Below are positions 11,418 through 38,781 of a DNA stretch of 38,781 nucleotides, in pieces (positions within the stretch are counted from its first letter, which is position 1; each line of letters begins with the position of its first letter). Source of the stretch: Oscillospiraceae bacterium (GTDB taxonomy: Bacteria; Bacillota; Clostridia; Monoglobales; Monoglobaceae); contig SVJR01000013.1 in the NCBI GenBank assembly GCA_015068845.1, positions 1 to 38,781 of the forward strand, given 5' to 3'. The position numbers and the translations under genes are program-made. The notes below the pieces were generated by a model. It made no database searches. It worked only from the letters and a program-made list of their open reading frames with translations, and was not told the origin of the DNA.

Positions 11418-13397
11418 GTGTGTGCAAAAACTTACAACGACGACAGCATTGTATCGCTTAAAGGTGCGGACAGAGTACGAAAGCGTCCGGCGGTTATTTT
11501 TGGCTCGGATGGCATTGAGGGCTGTCAGCACTCGGTATTTGAAATACTTTCAAACTCCATTGACGAGGCGCGTGAAGGCCACGGCAAGCTTATTACCGTG
11601 CGCAGATTTCTGGATAAGTCCATAGAGGTGGAGGATCAGGGCCGCGGTATTCCCGTTGACTACAACCAGCGCGAGGAACGGTTCAACTGGGAGCTTGTCT
11701 TTTGTGAGATGTACGCAGGAGGTAAGTATAAAAACAATTCCGGCGAGAACTATGAGTTCAGTTTGGGCCTGAATGGCCTTGGTACTTGTGCAACTCAGTA
11801 CAGCTCGGAATATATGGATGTTGAAATCCTGCGTGACGGCTTCAAGTTTGAACTGCACTTTGAAAAAGGCGAAAATATAGGCGGACTCCAGAAAACCGAG
11901 TTTAGGCACAGACATACAGGTACAAAAATCCGCTGGAAGCCCGACCTTGAAGTTTTTACCGACATAAATGTTCCTCTTGAATATTACTGCGATGTAATGA
12001 AAAAGCAGGCTGTTGTCAATTCGGGAGTAAAGTTTGTCCTCTACAATGAAACAGACCCCGGCAAGTTTGAAAAGTTCGAGTTTGAATACACAAACGGCAT
12101 AGTTGACTACCTGACCGAACTGTGTGGCGGAAAGGAAAAGACTTTGCCCCACTATATCGAAACCGAACGCCGAGGCCGTGACCGTGAGGATAAGGAAGAA
12201 TACAAGGTTAAAATGAGCTTTGCGTTCTGTATGAATAATGATGTAAATGCGATTGAATATTACCATAACTCCAGCTTCCTTGAACACGGCGGTGCGCCGG
12301 ATAAGGCGGTGCGTAATGCATTTGTTTACGCAATAGACAAGTATCTCAAGGCAAACGGCAAATACACCAAAAACGAGTCAAAAATTCTCTTTGCCGATGT
12401 TCAGGACAGCCTTTGCCTGATAAGCAACTCGTTCTCAACCCTCACAAGCTACGAGAACCAGACGAAAAAAGCGATTACAAACAAGTTTATTCAGGAGGCA
12501 ATGACCGAGTTCCTCCGAGAACAGCTTGATGTATATTTTATTGAAAATAAAATGGACGCCGAAAAACTGGCAGAGCAGGTTCTTGTTAATAAGCGCAGCC
12601 GTGAAACTGCGGAAAAAACACGAACTACAATGAAAAAGAAGCTCGATGTCAAGATGGATGCTGTCAACCGTGTTAAAAAATTCGTAGATTGCCGAAGCAA
12701 AGACAAGTCCAAGCGTGAAATCTACATCGTGGAGGGTGATTCAGCGCTTGGTGCATGTAAGCTCGGCCGTGACAGTGAATTCCAGGCAATCATTCCTCTG
12801 CGTGGTAAAATTCTCAACTGTCTTAAAGCAGACTACGACAGAATTTTCAAAAGCGATGTAATTGTTGACCTGCTTAAGGTCCTTGGTTGCGGTGTCGAGA
12901 TAAACTCAAAAAGCAATAAGGATTTGAATTCCTTTGATATAAACAACTTAAGATGGAACAAGGTTATAATCTGTACCGATGCCGATGTTGATGGCTTCCA
13001 GATTCGCACGCTGGTTCTGACAATGATTTACCGCCTTGCCCCAACCCTTATCGATCAGGGCTATGTTTATATAGCAGAATCCCCTCTCTATGAGATAAAT
13101 TCAAAAAACAAAACTTACTTCGCATTTGACGAGAAGGAGAAGGCAGATATTCTCAAAAAGCTTGAGGGTCAAAAGTACACAATTCAGCGAAGCAAGGGTC
13201 TTGGCGAAAACCAGCCCGAAATGATGTGGGAAACAACAATGAACCCCGAAACCAGAAGACTAATCAAGGTAATGCCCGATGATGTAGAAAAAACCAAGGA
13301 AGTATTTGAACTTCTGCTTGGCGATAACCTCGCAGGCAGAAAAGAACACATCGCCGAAAATGGCTACAAGTATATCGATTTTACGGACCTTATGTAG
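11418..13397 (+). CDS. Type IIA DNA topoisomerase B subunit, ParE/GyrB-like, divergent
   Basis: 659 residues from GTG 11418 behind GGAGG. It has a GHKL ATPase domain with FEILSNSIDEAREG (the catalytic Glu and Mg-binding Asn), VEDQGRGIPV (adenine-binding Asp) and the ATP lid GLNGLGTC, where most GyrB/ParE have G-L-H-G-V-G. The TOPRIM domain has IVEGDSALGACKLGRDSEFQ (usual EGDSAGGSAKQGRD) and DADVDGFQIRTL (usual DADVDGAHIRTL). It works with the A subunit at 13467 to pass one duplex through another using ATP. The metal-binding acids are all kept, so the enzyme should be active. The departures mark it as a second, clostridial-type topoisomerase rather than the main gyrase. Calling it topoisomerase IV is an inference. 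Confidence 0.85.
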   Translation: MCAKTYNDDSIVSLKGADRVRKRPAVIFGSDGIEGCQHSVFEILSNSIDEAREGHGKLITVRRFLDKSIEVEDQGRGIPVDYNQREERFNWELVFCEMYAGGKYKNNSGENYEFSLGLNGLGTCATQYSSEYMDVEILRDGFKFELHFEKGENIGGLQKTEFRHRHTGTKIRWKPDLEVFTDINVPLEYYCDVMKKQAVVNSGVKFVLYNETDPGKFEKFEFEYTNGIVDYLTELCGGKEKTLPHYIETERRGRDREDKEEYKVKMSFAFCMNNDVNAIEYYHNSSFLEHGGAPDKAVRNAFVYAIDKYLKANGKYTKNESKILFADVQDSLCLISNSFSTLTSYENQTKKAITNKFIQEAMTEFLREQLDVYFIENKMDAEKLAEQVLVNKRSRETAEKTRTTMKKKLDVKMDAVNRVKKFVDCRSKDKSKREIYIVEGDSALGACKLGRDSEFQAIIPLRGKILNCLKADYDRIFKSDVIVDLLKVLGCGVEINSKSNKDLNSFDINNLRWNKVIICTDADVDGFQIRTLVLTMIYRLAPTLIDQGYVYIAESPLYEINSKNKTYFAFDEKEKADILKKLEGQKYTIQRSKGLGENQPEMMWETTMNPETRRLIKVMPDDVEKTKEVFELLLGDNLAGRKEHIAENGYKYIDFTDLM

Positions 13398-25146: not shown

Positions 25147-26451
25147 ATGCCAAACAACACTGATATAAGGCAGCTTCGCTGTTCATTCTGCGGCAAAACC
25201 GAGGACCAGGTAAAAAAGCTTATCGAAGGCCCCGGTGTATATATCTGCAATGAATGTGTAGATTTGTGCTTTGAAATTTTTGAGGACGAATTTGAGGATA
25301 TAACTCCGGAAACAGCCGACACCAAAATGGACGAACTGCCCAAACCCCGGGAAATAAAGGCGTTTCTTGATGATTATATAGTGGGTCAGGATGCGGCGAA
25401 AAAGGCACTTTCTGTTGCGATTTATAATCATTACAAAAGAATAGGCTACAATCTCGGCAACGACGATATAGAACTACAAAAAAGCAATATTTTGCTTCTT
25501 GGCCCGACAGGTGTGGGTAAAACCTTTATTGCTCAAACCCTTGCAAAGGTAATGAAAGTTCCGTTTGTAATAGCCGATGCAACATCACTTACCGAAGCCG
25601 GCTATGTGGGCGAGGATGTGGAGAATATTCTGCTTAAGCTGATTCAGGCGGCGGATTACAATATCGAGCGTGCCGAAAAAGGTATAATTTATATCGACGA
25701 GATCGACAAGATTTCAAGAAAGTCCGAGAACCCCTCAATTACTCGTGATGTAAGCGGCGAAGGCGTTCAGCAGACCCTGCTGAAAATTCTTGAAGGTACG
25801 GTTGCATCTGTTCCCCCGACCGGCGGCAGAAAGCATCCGCATCAGGAATTTATCCAGATTGACACCACCAATATTTTGTTTATATGCGGCGGTGCATTCG
25901 AGGGTATTGACAAAATTATTGAAAGCCGTGTAAATGCCAAAGCAATGGGCTTTGGTGCGGTTGTGGAAAGCAAAAAGGACAAAAACCGCGGCGATGTGTT
26001 AAAAAACCTTATTCCGGACGATTTGCTCAAATTCGGACTTATTCCTGAATTTATCGGTCGTGTTCCCGTTATAACCACGCTTGACTCTTTGGATAAGGAA
26101 GCACTTAAAATGATTCTTACCCAGCCGAAAAATGCATTGGTTAAACAGTATGCAAAGCTTCTTGAAATGGACGGTGCAGAGCTTGTGTTTGACGATGAAG
26201 CAATTGACGCTATTGCTGAAAAGGCAATTAAACGCAACACCGGCGCGCGAGGTCTCAGAACCATTGTTGAGGAAATTATGCAGGATATAATGTTTGATAT
26301 CCCGTCAGACCCGACAATTAAGATGGTTAAGGTGACTAAGGATTGCGTTGTCAGCAAGGCAGCACCGGAAGTTACCAGAGAAGAAAAGAAACCTATGAAA
26401 AAAACAACTACCCGTACCAAACCGGCAGAGGACGATAAAACCGCCTGCTGA
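25147..26451 (+). CDS. clpX: ATP-dependent protease ATP-binding subunit ClpX
   Basis: 434 residues. The N-terminal zinc-binding domain has Cys12, Cys15, Cys34 and Cys37 (CSFCGK ... CNECVDLC). The AAA+ domain has Walker A GPTGVGKT (119-126), Walker [10 protein letters not shown] (Asp184-Glu185) and the pore loop [21 protein letters not shown] and [20 protein letters not shown] are the sensor 2 region. ClpX unfolds tagged substrates and passes them to ClpP. The C-terminus has a basic/acidic tail ([20 protein letters not shown]) beyond the conserved part. RBS AAAAGGAGC. Cotranscribed with clpP. Confidence 0.98.
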
Positions 26452-35096: not shown

Positions 35097-35173
35097 GGAT
35101 CTTTAGCTCAGTTGGTTAGAGCAACCGGCTCATAACCGGTCGGTCCGGGGTTCGAGTCCCTGAAGATCCACCA
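35097..35173 (+). tRNA. tRNA with anticodon CAT (Met elongator or Ile2)
   Basis: 77 bases including an encoded CCA. Acceptor stem GGATCTT/AAGATCC, D arm GCTC/GAGC, anticodon stem ACCGG/CCGGT with loop CTCATAA, T arm CGGGG-TTCGAGT-CCCTG, discriminator A. All stems pair, with one G-T wobble. Anticodon CAT reads AUG (Met) unless lysidine-modified to read AUA (Ile2). The body TTTAGCTCAGTTGGTTAGAG and loop CTCATAA resemble Gram-positive tRNA-Ile2. It is not an initiator: the first base pair is G-C and the anticodon stem lacks three GC pairs next to the loop. Confidence 0.93.
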
Positions 35174-35179
35174 AAATTC

Positions 35180-35218
35180 GCGGTCAAAATAGATGCAATC
35201 TGTTTTGACCGCATTTTT
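35180..35218 (+). terminator. Intrinsic terminator of the tRNA gene
   Basis: A long stem of about 15 bp, GCGGTCAAAATAGAT / ATCTGTTTTGACCGC with one T-G wobble and loop GCA (35180-35212), then ATTTTTA. Confidence 0.93.
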
Positions 35219-35334
35219 ACGCACTTTTCGGGGATTTTTCAAAAATTCGTTTTGAATAAAAGACAGTAGATGCACCCACCGTTTCTACCAGTCTTGAACC
35301 AGAGACAAGGGCTTAAATCCTATAAAAATTCGAC

Positions 35335-35363
35335 TTGACTACATAAAAGATGCAAGTTACAAC
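35335..35363 (+). promoter_or_regulatory. Candidate promoter of the accessory cassette
   Basis: TTGACT (35335-35340), 17-base spacer, TACAAC (35358-35363). It lies in the gap 35219-35475, which otherwise holds no gene and only short stop-rich frames. A terminator-like hairpin follows before the first gene. Confidence 0.45.
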
Positions 35364-35405
35364 ATACAGGATACGAACCCTAACACAATTTAATACAAAT
35401 AAATG

Positions 35406-35445
35406 AAGGCGATAATTTCAGAAATGAAGTTATCGTCTTTTTTTA
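35406..35445 (+). terminator. Terminator-like hairpin in the leader of the accessory cassette
   Basis: Stem AAGGCGATAA / TTATCGTCTT with one G-T wobble (35406-35439) and a T-tract (TTTTTTT). It lies between the candidate promoter and the first accessory gene, so it either ends an incoming transcript or acts as an attenuator. Confidence 0.7.
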
Positions 35446-35475
35446 TATCCAAAATTACAGGAAGGAGGAAATCTA

Positions 35476-36147
35476 ATGAATGTAGAAAGATTTTTGATTC
35501 AGGTGAAGCAAAACCTGCCTGAACATGAAGGTGTGACTACTTGGGTTGAAGATTCTGCATTGAATGTAGGTTATGGTAAGTCAGAGAGTTTCGAAATCAG
35601 ATATCCCGGAGGCATTTGTTATAATGCCGCAACTGAGAAGACCGATGAATTTTATAAATTGGTCGAAGAAGCAGATAAAGCTTTCAAAACAGTTAAGGAA
35701 TATATTGATTTGATGGACAAGGCTCCAGACCTCACAGCGAGAGACTTCAATATGCCATATAAGTTACTTGCAGAATTTAACGGAGTTGTACTTGGCGGAA
35801 TTGAGCATCGATCAAATAACACCTTTGAGTTCACGACTTGGTCATACGCAAACAATTCTTTGTATCACGGTCATTACTTTACCGATTACGAAAAGGCAAA
35901 AGAGGATTTTGCAGTAAGATCAGGATTGCTTCAATCAACCAAGTTGTTTACAGACAAAGAGATGATGCAGATATATCGTTGTACAGAAGATACATTAAAC
36001 AACGGATATGAATTGTCGAGTGAACAGACTGAGGTGTTAGAGCAGGTACAGGAGAAGATTAAGGAATCTGTTCCAAACTTCGATGAGAAGCTTCAGGAAG
36101 AGATAGATCAGGAATGCGAAGAGGACATGGGAATGTCAATGCAATAA
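35476..36147 (+). CDS. Accessory protein, unknown, with C-terminal MGMSM tail
   Basis: 223 residues, RBS GGAAGGAGG. The N-terminal part (about 1-90) is mixed helix and strand (RFLIQVKQNLPEHEGVTTW). The middle has aromatic strands (GGIEHRSNNTFEFTTWSY, GHYFTDYEKAKEDFAVRSGL). The C-terminus is a charged helix ending EEDMGMSMQ. Proteins with this FTTW...YEKAKEDFA character occur in conjugative elements and plasmids of gut Firmicutes and are annotated as hypothetical; I do not recognise a named domain with confidence. No signal or membrane segment, so it is cytosolic. First gene of the cassette downstream of the tRNA. The tail is shared with genes at 36168 and 37065. Confidence 0.7.
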   Translation: MNVERFLIQVKQNLPEHEGVTTWVEDSALNVGYGKSESFEIRYPGGICYNAATEKTDEFYKLVEEADKAFKTVKEYIDLMDKAPDLTARDFNMPYKLLAEFNGVVLGGIEHRSNNTFEFTTWSYANNSLYHGHYFTDYEKAKEDFAVRSGLLQSTKLFTDKEMMQIYRCTEDTLNNGYELSSEQTEVLEQVQEKIKESVPNFDEKLQEEIDQECEEDMGMSMQ

Positions 36148-36167
36148 ATATGAAGGAGGAATAACAC

Positions 36168-36587
36168 ATGCAAGAAGGAACAAGAGTATTAGCAGTTGCG
36201 TTGTCTAATGATGTATTTGATAAATTAGATGACTATGTAAAGGAAATGCAGGTAACTAAGAAACAGTATGTTGCGGACCTTATAGAAAAGGATTTGGAAC
36301 AAAAGCTTCAACAGAAGCAGGAACCTGCAAAACAGATTGAGGTGAGACAGGCTCCTGATGGACAACAGGTTTGGGGCCGAGCAGAAGTCATAAATGCGTT
36401 AGATAAGTTTATGATTGAAAACGGCAGAATTCCTACACAGAAAGAATTCAAGAATGAAAACGGACTTCCGTCATATAATGCCGCAGGAAGAGCATTAGAG
36501 GTTTCCCCGGCAGAATATATGAAGGAGCGTTTCGATGAAGTCATGGCAGAGCAGCAGGAAGAAGCCGGAATGGGAATGAGTATGTAG
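36168..36587 (+). CDS. Putative DNA-binding protein: RHH-like N-terminus plus HNH_repeat-like segment, MGMSM tail
   Basis: 139 residues, RBS GAAGGAGGA. Residues about 5-48 (RVLAVALSNDVFDKLDDYVK, then EMQVTKKQYVADLIEKDLEQ) have the strand-helix-helix pattern of ribbon-helix-helix (CopG/Arc-like) repressors. A Gln/Lys-rich linker follows. Residues about 75-115 (EVINALDKFMIENGRIPTQK, then EFKNENGLPSYNAAGRAL) match the homing-endonuclease-associated repeat (HNH_repeat) pattern of G-R-x-P-t-x-x-E/D-F ... G-L-P-S-Y, a DNA-binding add-on. No nuclease motif is present. The C-terminus is EEAGMGMSM. It may regulate the cassette. Both domain calls are by eye. Confidence 0.65.
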   Translation: MQEGTRVLAVALSNDVFDKLDDYVKEMQVTKKQYVADLIEKDLEQKLQQKQEPAKQIEVRQAPDGQQVWGRAEVINALDKFMIENGRIPTQKEFKNENGLPSYNAAGRALEVSPAEYMKERFDEVMAEQQEEAGMGMSM

Positions 36588-36623
36588 GCGGTATGTTCTA
36601 TTAAGAATGTACCGCCTTTTTTT
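36587..36623 (+). terminator. Intrinsic terminator inside the accessory cassette
   Basis: Stem GGCGGTA / TACCGCC (36587-36616) with an inner TTCT/AGAA pair, followed by TTTTTTTATTTT. It begins at the stop codon of the preceding gene and separates the first two cassette genes from the rest. Confidence 0.9.
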
Positions 36624-36649
36624 ATTTTGAGAATAGGAGTGATTTGTAA

Positions 36650-37084
36650 ATGTTATCAAACGATTGTAAAGAAAAGTGCAGAGACATTGGAATGTTGGTA
36701 GAGAACATCATATGCATGGCAGAATGCTATGATGAACCTTTGGAAAAGTTCAGAAAGAGCATGTTCTATAAACCGGAATTCGAAGACAGAGAAAAAATCA
36801 TCCTTGATATGATTGAGACAAGCAACAGGGTGTCGGAGGAAATAAAACTTCTTTCTGTTGAAGACTTAAGAAAACTTCAGGATGAATTCGGAATCGAGTT
36901 AATAGGTTATACGGATATGCTTGCGACAGCACTAAGGAAAGAGCCGTATTCCAATAACGATGTTAAATATAAGTGCGATGCAATAGTGTCTATCGTGCTT
37001 GATATGGTGCATCGTGAATTAAGAGATGATGCGGTGTATCAGAAATTGGCAGAAGGAGTTGAACATGAAAATGTACAAGTTTAA
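36650..37084 (+). CDS. Accessory helical protein, unknown
   Basis: 144 residues, start ATG 36650 after AATAGGAGTGA. Predicted to be almost all helix, acidic, with three Cys near the N-terminus (DCKEKCRDIGMLVENIICMAEC). No known motif. The C-terminal QKLAEGVEHENVQV overlaps the start of the next gene by 20 bases, so translation is coupled. It lacks the MSM tail found in three of its neighbours. Cytosolic. It could be a partner of the 37065 protein, judged only by coupling. Confidence 0.6.
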   Translation: MLSNDCKEKCRDIGMLVENIICMAECYDEPLEKFRKSMFYKPEFEDREKIILDMIETSNRVSEEIKLLSVEDLRKLQDEFGIELIGYTDMLATALRKEPYSNNDVKYKCDAIVSIVLDMVHRELRDDAVYQKLAEGVEHENVQV

Positions 37085-38093
37085 CTTTTATCATACCAGG
37101 CCTGAAAACTTCTTTCGTAATGACAAGGATGAACAGACGAAAGGATTGGTCGGATATTTAAGAGGTGACTTTGGCAGAGACGGAAAAGAGTTTCATCATA
37201 CATGGTTTAACAACAACGAGAAGTTGAACAACGCAAGCTTCAAGGAAGATTTCGAAAAGATAATGGAAACTCTGCGTGAAAGACTTCTGACGGACAGGGA
37301 TTGGATGAGAAGTGTAGCATACAATCATCCCGAAGCAAAGATTGCAAGCGAGAGTACATCATCATACGGAATGTTTGTTGAAACAGAAAGGTACGAGTAT
37401 GATATACGAACCATTACCGAAGATGGCAACTACGATTTTTATATCTATTGCTACGATAAGAATTTCCAAGAACCTCAATATCTCAACAGCAGACGATTCA
37501 GAGATGAGAATGGAAAGCTCACTGAAAAGGTCGAGGAGATTGCAAAGAAAACTTTTCTTGAAGCTCGTAACTATTACACAAACGGCGATAGATATGAGAA
37601 TAACGGTAAGGTGTACACATTCAGAGTAACAGAAGAAAATATGCTCTTTGAAGGCCGAGACGGTGAGAAGCTTTTCGTAGCTCCTGAACTGATGGGAACA
37701 TACCTGCCGGATGTTGCATCCGAAGGAAGTGCCTTTGTAAAAGTGCCTATGAGTCAAACACTCGCAAATCTTACACTCGGTGATTTAATACAGAGCGTTA
37801 AACTTTCATCTGTTCACTTGGTGCATGATGAGGTGGACATTGAGTTGGCAACTGTTGAAGACCTGTCAAATGATATGTTTACCGAAGCAGGGAAAGAAGC
37901 ATGGGCTGATGTGTTAAATGCTAAAGTTGATGAGATATTTGACGGCACATACGGAGTTCAAATCCAATGCAGTGGTGTAGACCATCAAAGGTTAACCGAA
38001 TTTTCATATGCGCTTGCCGGATATTGTCCCGATAAAGATTATAAGAATTGGTTCAACGAGATAGAAGATGCTGGACCAAATATGAGTATGTAG
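37065..38093 (+). CDS. Accessory protein, unknown, two-part, with C-terminal PNMSM tail
   Basis: 342 residues from ATG 37065 (MKMYKFNFYHTRPENFF), placed by AGAAGGAG; an earlier in-frame start at 37026 lies inside the upstream gene without a RBS. The N-terminal part has GLVGYLRGDFGRDGKEFHHT and WFNNNEKLNN, a wording seen in hypothetical proteins of Firmicutes mobile elements. The middle is an alpha/beta region (about 90-200) and the C-terminal third (about 240-342) contains EDLSNDMFTEAGKEAWADVL. It ends EDAGPNMSM. No catalytic motif is recognised. Cytosolic. Confidence 0.65.
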   Translation: MKMYKFNFYHTRPENFFRNDKDEQTKGLVGYLRGDFGRDGKEFHHTWFNNNEKLNNASFKEDFEKIMETLRERLLTDRDWMRSVAYNHPEAKIASESTSSYGMFVETERYEYDIRTITEDGNYDFYIYCYDKNFQEPQYLNSRRFRDENGKLTEKVEEIAKKTFLEARNYYTNGDRYENNGKVYTFRVTEENMLFEGRDGEKLFVAPELMGTYLPDVASEGSAFVKVPMSQTLANLTLGDLIQSVKLSSVHLVHDEVDIELATVEDLSNDMFTEAGKEAWADVLNAKVDEIFDGTYGVQIQCSGVDHQRLTEFSYALAGYCPDKDYKNWFNEIEDAGPNMSM

Positions 38094-38104: not shown

Positions 38105-38542
38105 ATGATTAGAAATATTGATATTTTACTTGAGATACAGGACAGAATACATAAGTTTCGCATTCTTGATGATGTGATTGCGGTTCACCTTGAAGATAAG
38201 GATACGGAGTTTTCGGATTTAATTGAAAATCCGTATCAGGAAATGTGCGACTTCCTGAATGCGATCAACGACATTGACAAGCTGTTGGATTCTCTCACCG
38301 AGGATTTGAGAGGTTCAATGGTAAATGACGGATTCGATCTCGATGACTATAAGTTCTGGAATGCATGTGTAATTCATAGCCCGTATAACCTTGAAGGATT
38401 GCTTGAAACCTTTGAGGGAGCCATAGAAACTCTCGAATTATATATCCTTGAAACAGTAAGAGGATATAAGATATTAACTCAGCTTGCTTATGATAAAAAC
38501 CCTCGTTTGCCCGGTTTGAATAAGCAAGAGGATAACGGTTGA
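38105..38542 (+). CDS. Accessory helical protein, unknown
   Basis: 145 residues from ATG 38105, fixed by TAGGAGGAATATAC; the frame is open to 38048 but that part overlaps the previous gene. It is acidic and mainly helical (LLEIQDRIHKFRILDDVIAV, ENPYQEMCDFLNAINDIDKL), with the unusual DLDDYKFWNACVIHSPYNLE. No family recognised. It resembles the 36650 product in size and helical make-up. The stop overlaps the next start (TGATG context), so the two are translationally coupled. Confidence 0.6.
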   Translation: MIRNIDILLEIQDRIHKFRILDDVIAVHLEDKDTEFSDLIENPYQEMCDFLNAINDIDKLLDSLTEDLRGSMVNDGFDLDDYKFWNACVIHSPYNLEGLLETFEGAIETLELYILETVRGYKILTQLAYDKNPRLPGLNKQEDNG

Positions 38543-38781
38543 TGGCTACGAAATTTATGGCTGGTACAGAGTTGTTTATGTTTGAATGTTTAATGCAGCA
38601 GACTCCCAATATGAGCAGGGCAAATCAGGAAGAGAAGAGATTCAAGGCTCAGTATATCGGAGTGCTTAAAGATTACATGCGAGAATATGGCTATGGGGAT
38701 ATCCGCAAAAGAGTATTGAATTCATTGGATAAATTCATATTTGATGAATTCATCTTTTGTAATGAGGAACATAGAGATACC
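38542..38781 (+). CDS. Accessory protein, unknown, 3' end outside the window
   Basis: 80 codons from ATG 38542, open at the right edge. It overlaps the last base of the previous stop (TGATGG). It reads MATKFMAGTELFMFECLMQQ, then TPNMSRANQEEKRFKAQYIG, LKDYMREYGYGDIRKRVLNS and so on. The internal TPNMSR near residue 22 echoes the PNMSM and GMSM tails of its neighbours. Helical and basic. No family recognised. RBS is not separate; coupling with the upstream gene is likely. Confidence 0.6.
   Translation, partial: MATKFMAGTELFMFECLMQQTPNMSRANQEEKRFKAQYIGVLKDYMREYGYGDIRKRVLNSLDKFIFDEFIFCNEEHRDT

Follow-up and report, generated by a model that had tools for sequence, protein, structure and literature searches.

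C-terminal tails on accessory proteins of Clostridia conjugative elements differ between element classes and are candidate signals for delivery with DNA

The window, as the stretch under study is called here, is the complete 38,781-nucleotide contig SVJR01000013.1 of an Oscillospiraceae bacterium (assembly GCA_015068845.1; G000:C15), a metagenome-assembled genome of ruminant-gut Clostridia as judged from its named relatives; from position 35174 onward it carries the left end of a mobile element. Unrelated accessory proteins of this element end with a short methionine-rich tail. In related elements of Clostridia such tails are enriched, are absent from the conserved machine parts and from nearly all host proteins, and are replaced by another, arginine-ended tail in elements of the Tn1549/CD1115 class. 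From the sequences it is probable that the tails are element-class-specific C-terminal signals through which accessory proteins are brought to the type IV coupling machinery and delivered together with DNA.

An earlier note on this DNA had reported a near-identical tail on the products encoded from 35476, 36168 and 37065 (P1, P2 and P4). The three tails were confirmed and belong to three of the five complete genes of the left end. The corresponding features are the following.

35476..36147, plus strand: P1, accessory protein of 223 amino acids without a Pfam family, ending with EEDMGMSMQ.
36118..36144, plus strand: P1 tail EEDMGMSMQ; MEIKMY in L039, the most diverged close relative.
36168..36587, plus strand: P2, accessory protein of 139 amino acids, ending with EEAGMGMSM; weak matches to an HNH-associated repeat and to small DNA-binding-like domains.
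36558..36584, plus strand: P2 tail EEAGMGMSM.
37065..38093, plus strand: P4, accessory protein of 342 amino acids, ending with EDAGPNMSM; its conserved N-terminal domain is common to Tn1549-type elements and phages.
38064..38090, plus strand: P4 tail EDAGPNMSM; GPDMSM or GPNMSM in homologues despite divergence of the preceding 20 residues.

The start of P4 was taken as 37065; the listing of open reading frames (ORFs) starts it at the upstream ATG 37026. The P1 homologue of a related element (contig G037:C180) ends with NNGISMN, and P2 homologues end with DPGMSMSM, DPGMSMGM or GPDMNI. The motif TPNMSR of the truncated last gene, which had been taken as a further tail cue, turned out to be a coincidence, being internal and near the N-terminus, with TPNMAR and TPAAVS in homologues.

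The host comparison was conducted by a pattern search of the assembly and with sampled stretches. The tail was detected in 1/32 complete host ORFs of the window (a weak match, KLMQKMLIY), and 6 of the 377 sampled host ORFs (1.6%) passed a generous tail rule, resulting in a probability of about 4e-5 for a tail on three of five consecutive genes. The codon pattern of MSM followed by a stop coincided with real gene ends at only two places of the 1.30-Mb assembly, both in this element; the remaining matches either were not in frame or fell in ORFs of very small size. On the basis of this pattern search and the host protein counts, a Met-rich C-terminus as a general host trait was rejected.

The earlier note had also considered copying of a single 3' end to several genes by recombination. 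P2 and P4 do have 12 bases, ATGAGTATGTAG, in common, but the codons of P1 differ, with serine encoded by TCA and AGT, and the ungapped similarity of the flanks is 29-51% upstream and 20-36% downstream. Since the Ser codons differ, the flanks are dissimilar and the tail is kept across elements as a varied pattern (M/L/I alternation), not as one DNA sequence, this was rejected as a general explanation and has next to no chance of being correct. An effect at the level of nucleotides or expression, in which ATG-rich 3' ends aid translational coupling or termination and the peptide has no role, is hardly credible either. It would suit the tight packing of the genes and the overlap of the P4 stop with the ribosome-binding site TAGGAGG. 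However, M, L, I and F vary at the alternating positions, the codons and the following DNA differ, neighbours in the same operon have no tail, and the Arg tail of the other class comes without such a nucleotide feature.

The class sample consisted of 13 Clostridia stretches, for whose selection TrbL_5-type conjugation genes or synteny were used and tails were not: 40-kb stretches around the TrbL_5 (PF19511) genes of other Clostridia genomes were pooled with C180 and L089. Soluble proteins encoded on the element strand were counted, and a strict tail was defined as at least 2 Met within the last 7 residues. Such a tail was carried by 52/262 soluble element proteins (20%) and by 2/246 soluble host proteins (0.8%; p = 5e-14), where proteins within one class are not independent, a point addressed in part by the family-level count and by the held-out contigs described below. 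At the family level, a majority tail was determined for 32 of the 116 soluble families compared with 3 of the 246 soluble host proteins (p = 1.5e-14). The comparison proposed in the earlier note, of element genes with host genes, thus showed the tail to be enriched in the former. Among the membrane or exported proteins that these elements encode, 2/161 (1%) had a strict tail, and 2/45 membrane families had it in the majority; one of these is a small membrane protein with its own conserved end IWxILGM, which matches the rule by accident. The conserved machine families were free of the tail: TrbL 0/12, VirB4 0/10, TadA-like ATPase 0/11, T2SSF-like 0/10 and VirD4 0/5. The tail is therefore located where a signal for a type IV secretion system (T4SS) is expected, at the very C-terminal end of soluble proteins, and is missing from the parts of the machine.

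The aligned ends consist of an acidic or Gln-rich linker at -8 to -16 and of alternating hydrophobic residues at -1, -3 and -5, with Met dominant at -3 and Met or Leu at -1. The resulting pattern, phi-x-M-x-M/L(/I), is seen in ends such as GLSMSM, NFTMTM, GMKLKL, SPEMKL and GPQMNL. About 30 soluble families carry it in the 13 stretches, which strongly supports the earlier suggestion that unrelated proteins share a recognition signal. The tailed proteins are of kinds whose activity would be expected in a recipient cell: ArdA, SpoVG-like, LPD28, DUF3846, Toprim primase, amidoligase, YodL, DUF3849 and AbiEii-like proteins; DUF6329 and Toprim/DUF3991 proteins are tailed as well. The tail was found on 8/8 YodL proteins and, under the strict rule, on 6/7 Amidoligase_2 proteins, of which the remaining one ends with FFMT. 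A gamma-glutamylcyclotransferase-like family of the TrbL_5 elements (G232a 11968-12471, G290 25732-26226 and homologues) has a shared end of its own, an acidic linker followed by F/W-x-x-KWW, which is perhaps an aromatic variant of the tail.

The annotated example of the class is the 49.7-kb contig G037:C180, a distant related element with a MobL relaxase (1e-31), TrbL_5 (5e-111) and T4SS-DNA_transf (1e-44), together with VirD4 and VirB4 homologues, a T2SS/Tad-like ATPase and membrane parts. About 16 of its proteins are tailed, including two ArdA-domain proteins and SpoVG-like, LPD28, DUF3846, DUF7659 and DUF6329 proteins. The same element encodes a 1809-amino-acid SLH/Big_1 surface-type protein (L031 4557-9986), which has an ArdA-type region on one side and the methylase and accessory genes on the other.

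A homologue of P4 was located in Tn1549/CD1115-type elements (L083-L087), whose soluble accessory proteins have a basic tail closed by Arg, commonly as ER or AR. The determined ends were SHEAR for ParA, DRDSR for ParB, RSFAR for Toprim, KDMER for DUF3846, NVKER for PcfB, KTYER for the SNF2 giant and NDKRR for the relaxase. In eleven CD1115-type stretches 59/149 soluble proteins were R-terminal compared with 23/246 of the host (p = 1.8e-12); in three stretches with other transfer types the count was 2/36. By family, R-terminal ends were found in 6/7 relaxases, which are established T4SS substrates, in 3/3 ParA, 4/4 ParB and 5/6 Toprim proteins, and in 0/10 VirB4 and 0/9 VirD4. An origin of the Arg tail from composition or guanine-cytosine content was rejected, as membrane proteins of the same elements were R-terminal in 8%.

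Members of one protein family change their tail with the element class. A HipA-like kinase (named from sequence features) shares 52.8% identity over 303 residues between the classes, and the alignment extends to the end of the last helix, followed by RNPELTM in a TrbL_5 element versus KHMPER in CD1115-type elements. Toprim primases end with NFTMTM, NFIMTM or NFDIKL in the former class versus SFAR, PTR, TER or PER in the latter, and P4 with GPNMSM in the window versus KTR, GEAR or LER in CD1115-type homologues. The homologous soluble pairs comprised 35 with the tail on one side and R on the other, 6 with the tail and no R, 17 with R and no tail, and 92 with neither; the 17 are mostly borderline tails that the strict rule misses.

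The held-out set consisted of nine IMG/VR contigs which were found solely by the P4 profile, and it divided cleanly according to tail type. Two of the P4 homologues were of the Met type (NMNMGGM, GLEMGGL), five of the Arg type (THER, DLER, DHER and twice GDAR) and two, short and phage-like, of neither. The neighbouring genes shared the tail type of their contig. One Met-type record carries TrbL_5 (E 6.6e-150) and one Arg-type record a CD1115 VirB4 with 84% identity; neither gene was seen in the remaining records, which are possibly fragments. Scans of the viral contigs with P2 and with TrbL gave no matches. P2 had no match in phages. In both the swaps and the held-out contigs the tail varies with the transfer system and not with the protein family, as a T4SS signal would. 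Tail-less homologues, which the earlier note had named as counter-evidence if present in intact elements, do exist, but in phages or in elements with other transfer systems.

The tail would accordingly be read as a short C-terminal address, with a flexible acidic or Gln-rich linker and the alternating hydrophobics phi-x-M-x-M/L/I at the very end, carried by many cytosolic proteins that are otherwise unrelated and belong to one class of integrative conjugative elements, namely Clostridia elements with TrbL_5-family type IV machinery and, in the annotated example, a MobL relaxase. Tn1549/CD1115-type elements would use another label, a basic linker with an Arg end, on the same protein families. 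We infer that the most likely reader is the transfer machinery of the element itself, a VirD4-type coupling protein or an adaptor, and that the tagged proteins are translocated into the recipient with the DNA, where ArdA antirestriction proteins, Toprim primase, DUF/LPD polyvalent-type proteins and others may aid establishment. Among the options of the earlier note, that of a secretion coupling protein fits best, because proteins with the same body carry different tails in different classes of transfer system. The wider picture, in which two Gram-positive element families each have their own C-terminal address code marking many proteins for delivery and a protein family switches code on passing from one class to the other, is one that we are mildly inclined to accept.

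The same tails could instead act without export, by docking the proteins on a hub or adaptor of the element that all of them share inside the cell, much as the C-terminal tip of single-stranded DNA-binding protein (SSB) or PDZ-type ligands do. The acidic linker with terminal hydrophobics does resemble hub-binding C-termini, the alternating phi-x-phi-x-phi suits strand addition, and a class-specific hub would likewise explain why the tail type tracks the element class. However, in the CD1115 class the Arg tail is found alike on the relaxase, on PcfB, which is linked to the relaxosome, and on primase, ParA/ParB and anti-defence-type proteins, all known or expected T4SS cargo, and no non-transfer hub of such a class-specific distribution was seen; docking of this kind was considered unlikely. 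Short hydrophobic C-terminal tails can also act as degrons, and the tails might limit the lifetime of accessory proteins in the donor or the recipient through Clp/Lon-type proteases or adaptors, which would be reasonable for proteins needed briefly. A shared host protease would not explain the basic, Arg-ended equivalent on the same families of the CD1115 class, and the acidic linkers are unlike known Clp tags, making a role in degradation quite improbable.

Several observations weigh against delivery by the element's own machinery as described above. The relaxases of the TrbL_5 class end with QIHL, KQTY, HQSY or IKMG, which bear only a loose likeness to the tail, and P3, P5, P6 and the DNA methylases are soluble accessory proteins with no tail. 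The ORFs were called mechanically and crudely, and some stretches include flanking host genes, which dilutes rather than creates the signal. Neither tail was found in the plasmids pLS20 (MobL) and CP141730 (Oscillospiraceae, MobP3), therefore the rule is not general. A VirB4 homologue was not found in the assembly of the window or in the closest relatives with this element, nor was TrbL_5 in G000 (the assembly of the window), G016 and G028, the three of these assemblies that the class sample names. The copy in the window is cut at the contig end at 38781, and L037, the one close relative that is complete, spans 8 kb and has no transfer genes; what the window holds may therefore be the remnant of an element, or a passenger. 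A tie of the tail to MobL relaxases in general was rejected, given its absence from pLS20. Neither tail was present on the homologues of a further tagged family that occur in plasmids of enterobacteria and Acinetobacter.

The remaining features of the left end, where the element abuts the CCA end of tRNA-Met and the sixth gene is cut by the contig end, are as follows.

35097..35173, plus strand: tRNA-Met gene; the element begins straight at its CCA end.
35174..35475, no strand assigned: left edge of the element, with a terminator-like hairpin right after the tRNA, then the leader of the accessory operon; kept from the tRNA end onward in L036-L038.
36650..37084, plus strand: P3, accessory protein of 144 amino acids without a tail; end HENVQV in the window and close relatives.
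38105..38542, plus strand: P5, accessory protein of 145 amino acids without a tail.
38542..38781, plus strand: P6, cut by the contig end; TPNMSR is internal.

The complete P6 homologue of L037 ends with KGQTIRIK, without a tail. Domain searches named no family for P1, P3, P4 or P5, and the hints for P2 were weak. AlphaFold2 models of P1 and P4, built from shallow alignments, were poor (mean predicted local distance difference test score, pLDDT, 48) and were not used; the P4 tail was the least confident stretch of its model (pLDDT 23-28).

In close relatives the same left end adjoins tRNA-Met, tRNA-Asn, tRNA-Cys or tRNA-Arg, so that four tRNA types carry the element at the CCA end. The initial hairpin occurs as two unrelated sequences of like build (L035-L039, window 35097-35215), that of L035 and L039 differing in sequence. 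The order P1-P2-P3...-'YIGRS' protein-DUF3846 is common to the window (to its end), L037, L038, L029, L078 and C180; in some of these, P1 and P2 are separated by an additional gene, for ArdA or another product. Downstream genes, beyond the reach of the window, are tailed in relatives: EEDGGMLMGGM and EETEEPVMEM in L037, INYQETMSMGGM in L029 and VDQGMSMSGM in L078. The uncharacterised '(S)FANLYIGRS' family (L037 13755-14444 and homologues) is represented not only in this element but also in large phages that infect several hosts and in plasmids of enterobacteria; the Met tail was present only in the Clostridia element versions examined. The sole copy with both flanks is that of L037 (9699-18500, JAGBEY010000003.1), which spans about 8 kb from tRNA-Cys to the host upp, has no integrase or transfer genes and has lost the tail of its DUF3846 gene; 3' of it lie a gene for a Schlafen-AlbA protein and two copies of TGCATCTATTATGAACGTGAAAGCC. 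Contigs of different metagenome-assembled genomes (L035, L036, L038, L039 and the window at 38781) break in the same stretch of the element, which suggests multiple or variable element copies in the populations.

If the proposed role is correct, C-termini alone would list the proteins which conjugative elements of common gut bacteria, including the Tn1549 type, send with DNA into recipients, and dozens of 'domain of unknown function' families would become candidate establishment or anti-defence cargo. The tails could also serve directly as tags in tests of protein delivery and would hint at how families are re-addressed when they pass from element to element. In the literature searched, no description of these tails or of a Gram-positive conjugation substrate signal was found; subscription journals and preprints were outside its scope, and an earlier mention is possible.

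A coupling-type reader and travel with the DNA agree with known T4SS biology, because T4SS substrates are known to carry C-terminal signal motifs in which positive or hydrophobic residues are abundant (PMC11288057), Gram-negative conjugation systems translocate primase, ParM, ParA/ParB, SSB and PsiB (PMC8406263), and polyvalent and related element proteins were proposed to be delivered via T4SS (Iyer et al. 2017, PMC5512222). The polyvalent proteins of the latter study resemble the tagged set in their LPD, YodL, ArdA/ArdC-type, Toprim primase and SNF2 giant members and in the proposed travel with DNA; a term search of its main text found no shared C-terminal tail, and the word 'methionine' is absent. 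A further parallel is provided by the VirB/VirD4-type systems (Agrobacterium VirF and VirE2; the 'conjutome' of F, pKM101 and RP4), where a short positive or hydrophobic C-terminal signal is likewise carried by many unrelated proteins and the known cargo comprises relaxases, primase, ParA/ParB/ParM and SSB (PMC11288057, PMC8406263). In contrast to these, the present tails are Gram-positive, form a compact end on about 30 soluble families, comprise two class-tied codes and are known from sequence. The signal of the Legionella Dot/Icm system consists of an E-block and a C-terminal hydrophobic residue, and the likeness, an acidic stretch followed by terminal hydrophobics, is by analogy only; here the linker is Gln-rich or acidic, the alternating end is dominated by Met, and Dot/Icm machinery is absent. 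The acidic C-terminal tip of SSB is similar as a protein-interaction tail with an acidic linker and a hydrophobic end, but there one protein serves many partners, whereas here many proteins carry the tail.

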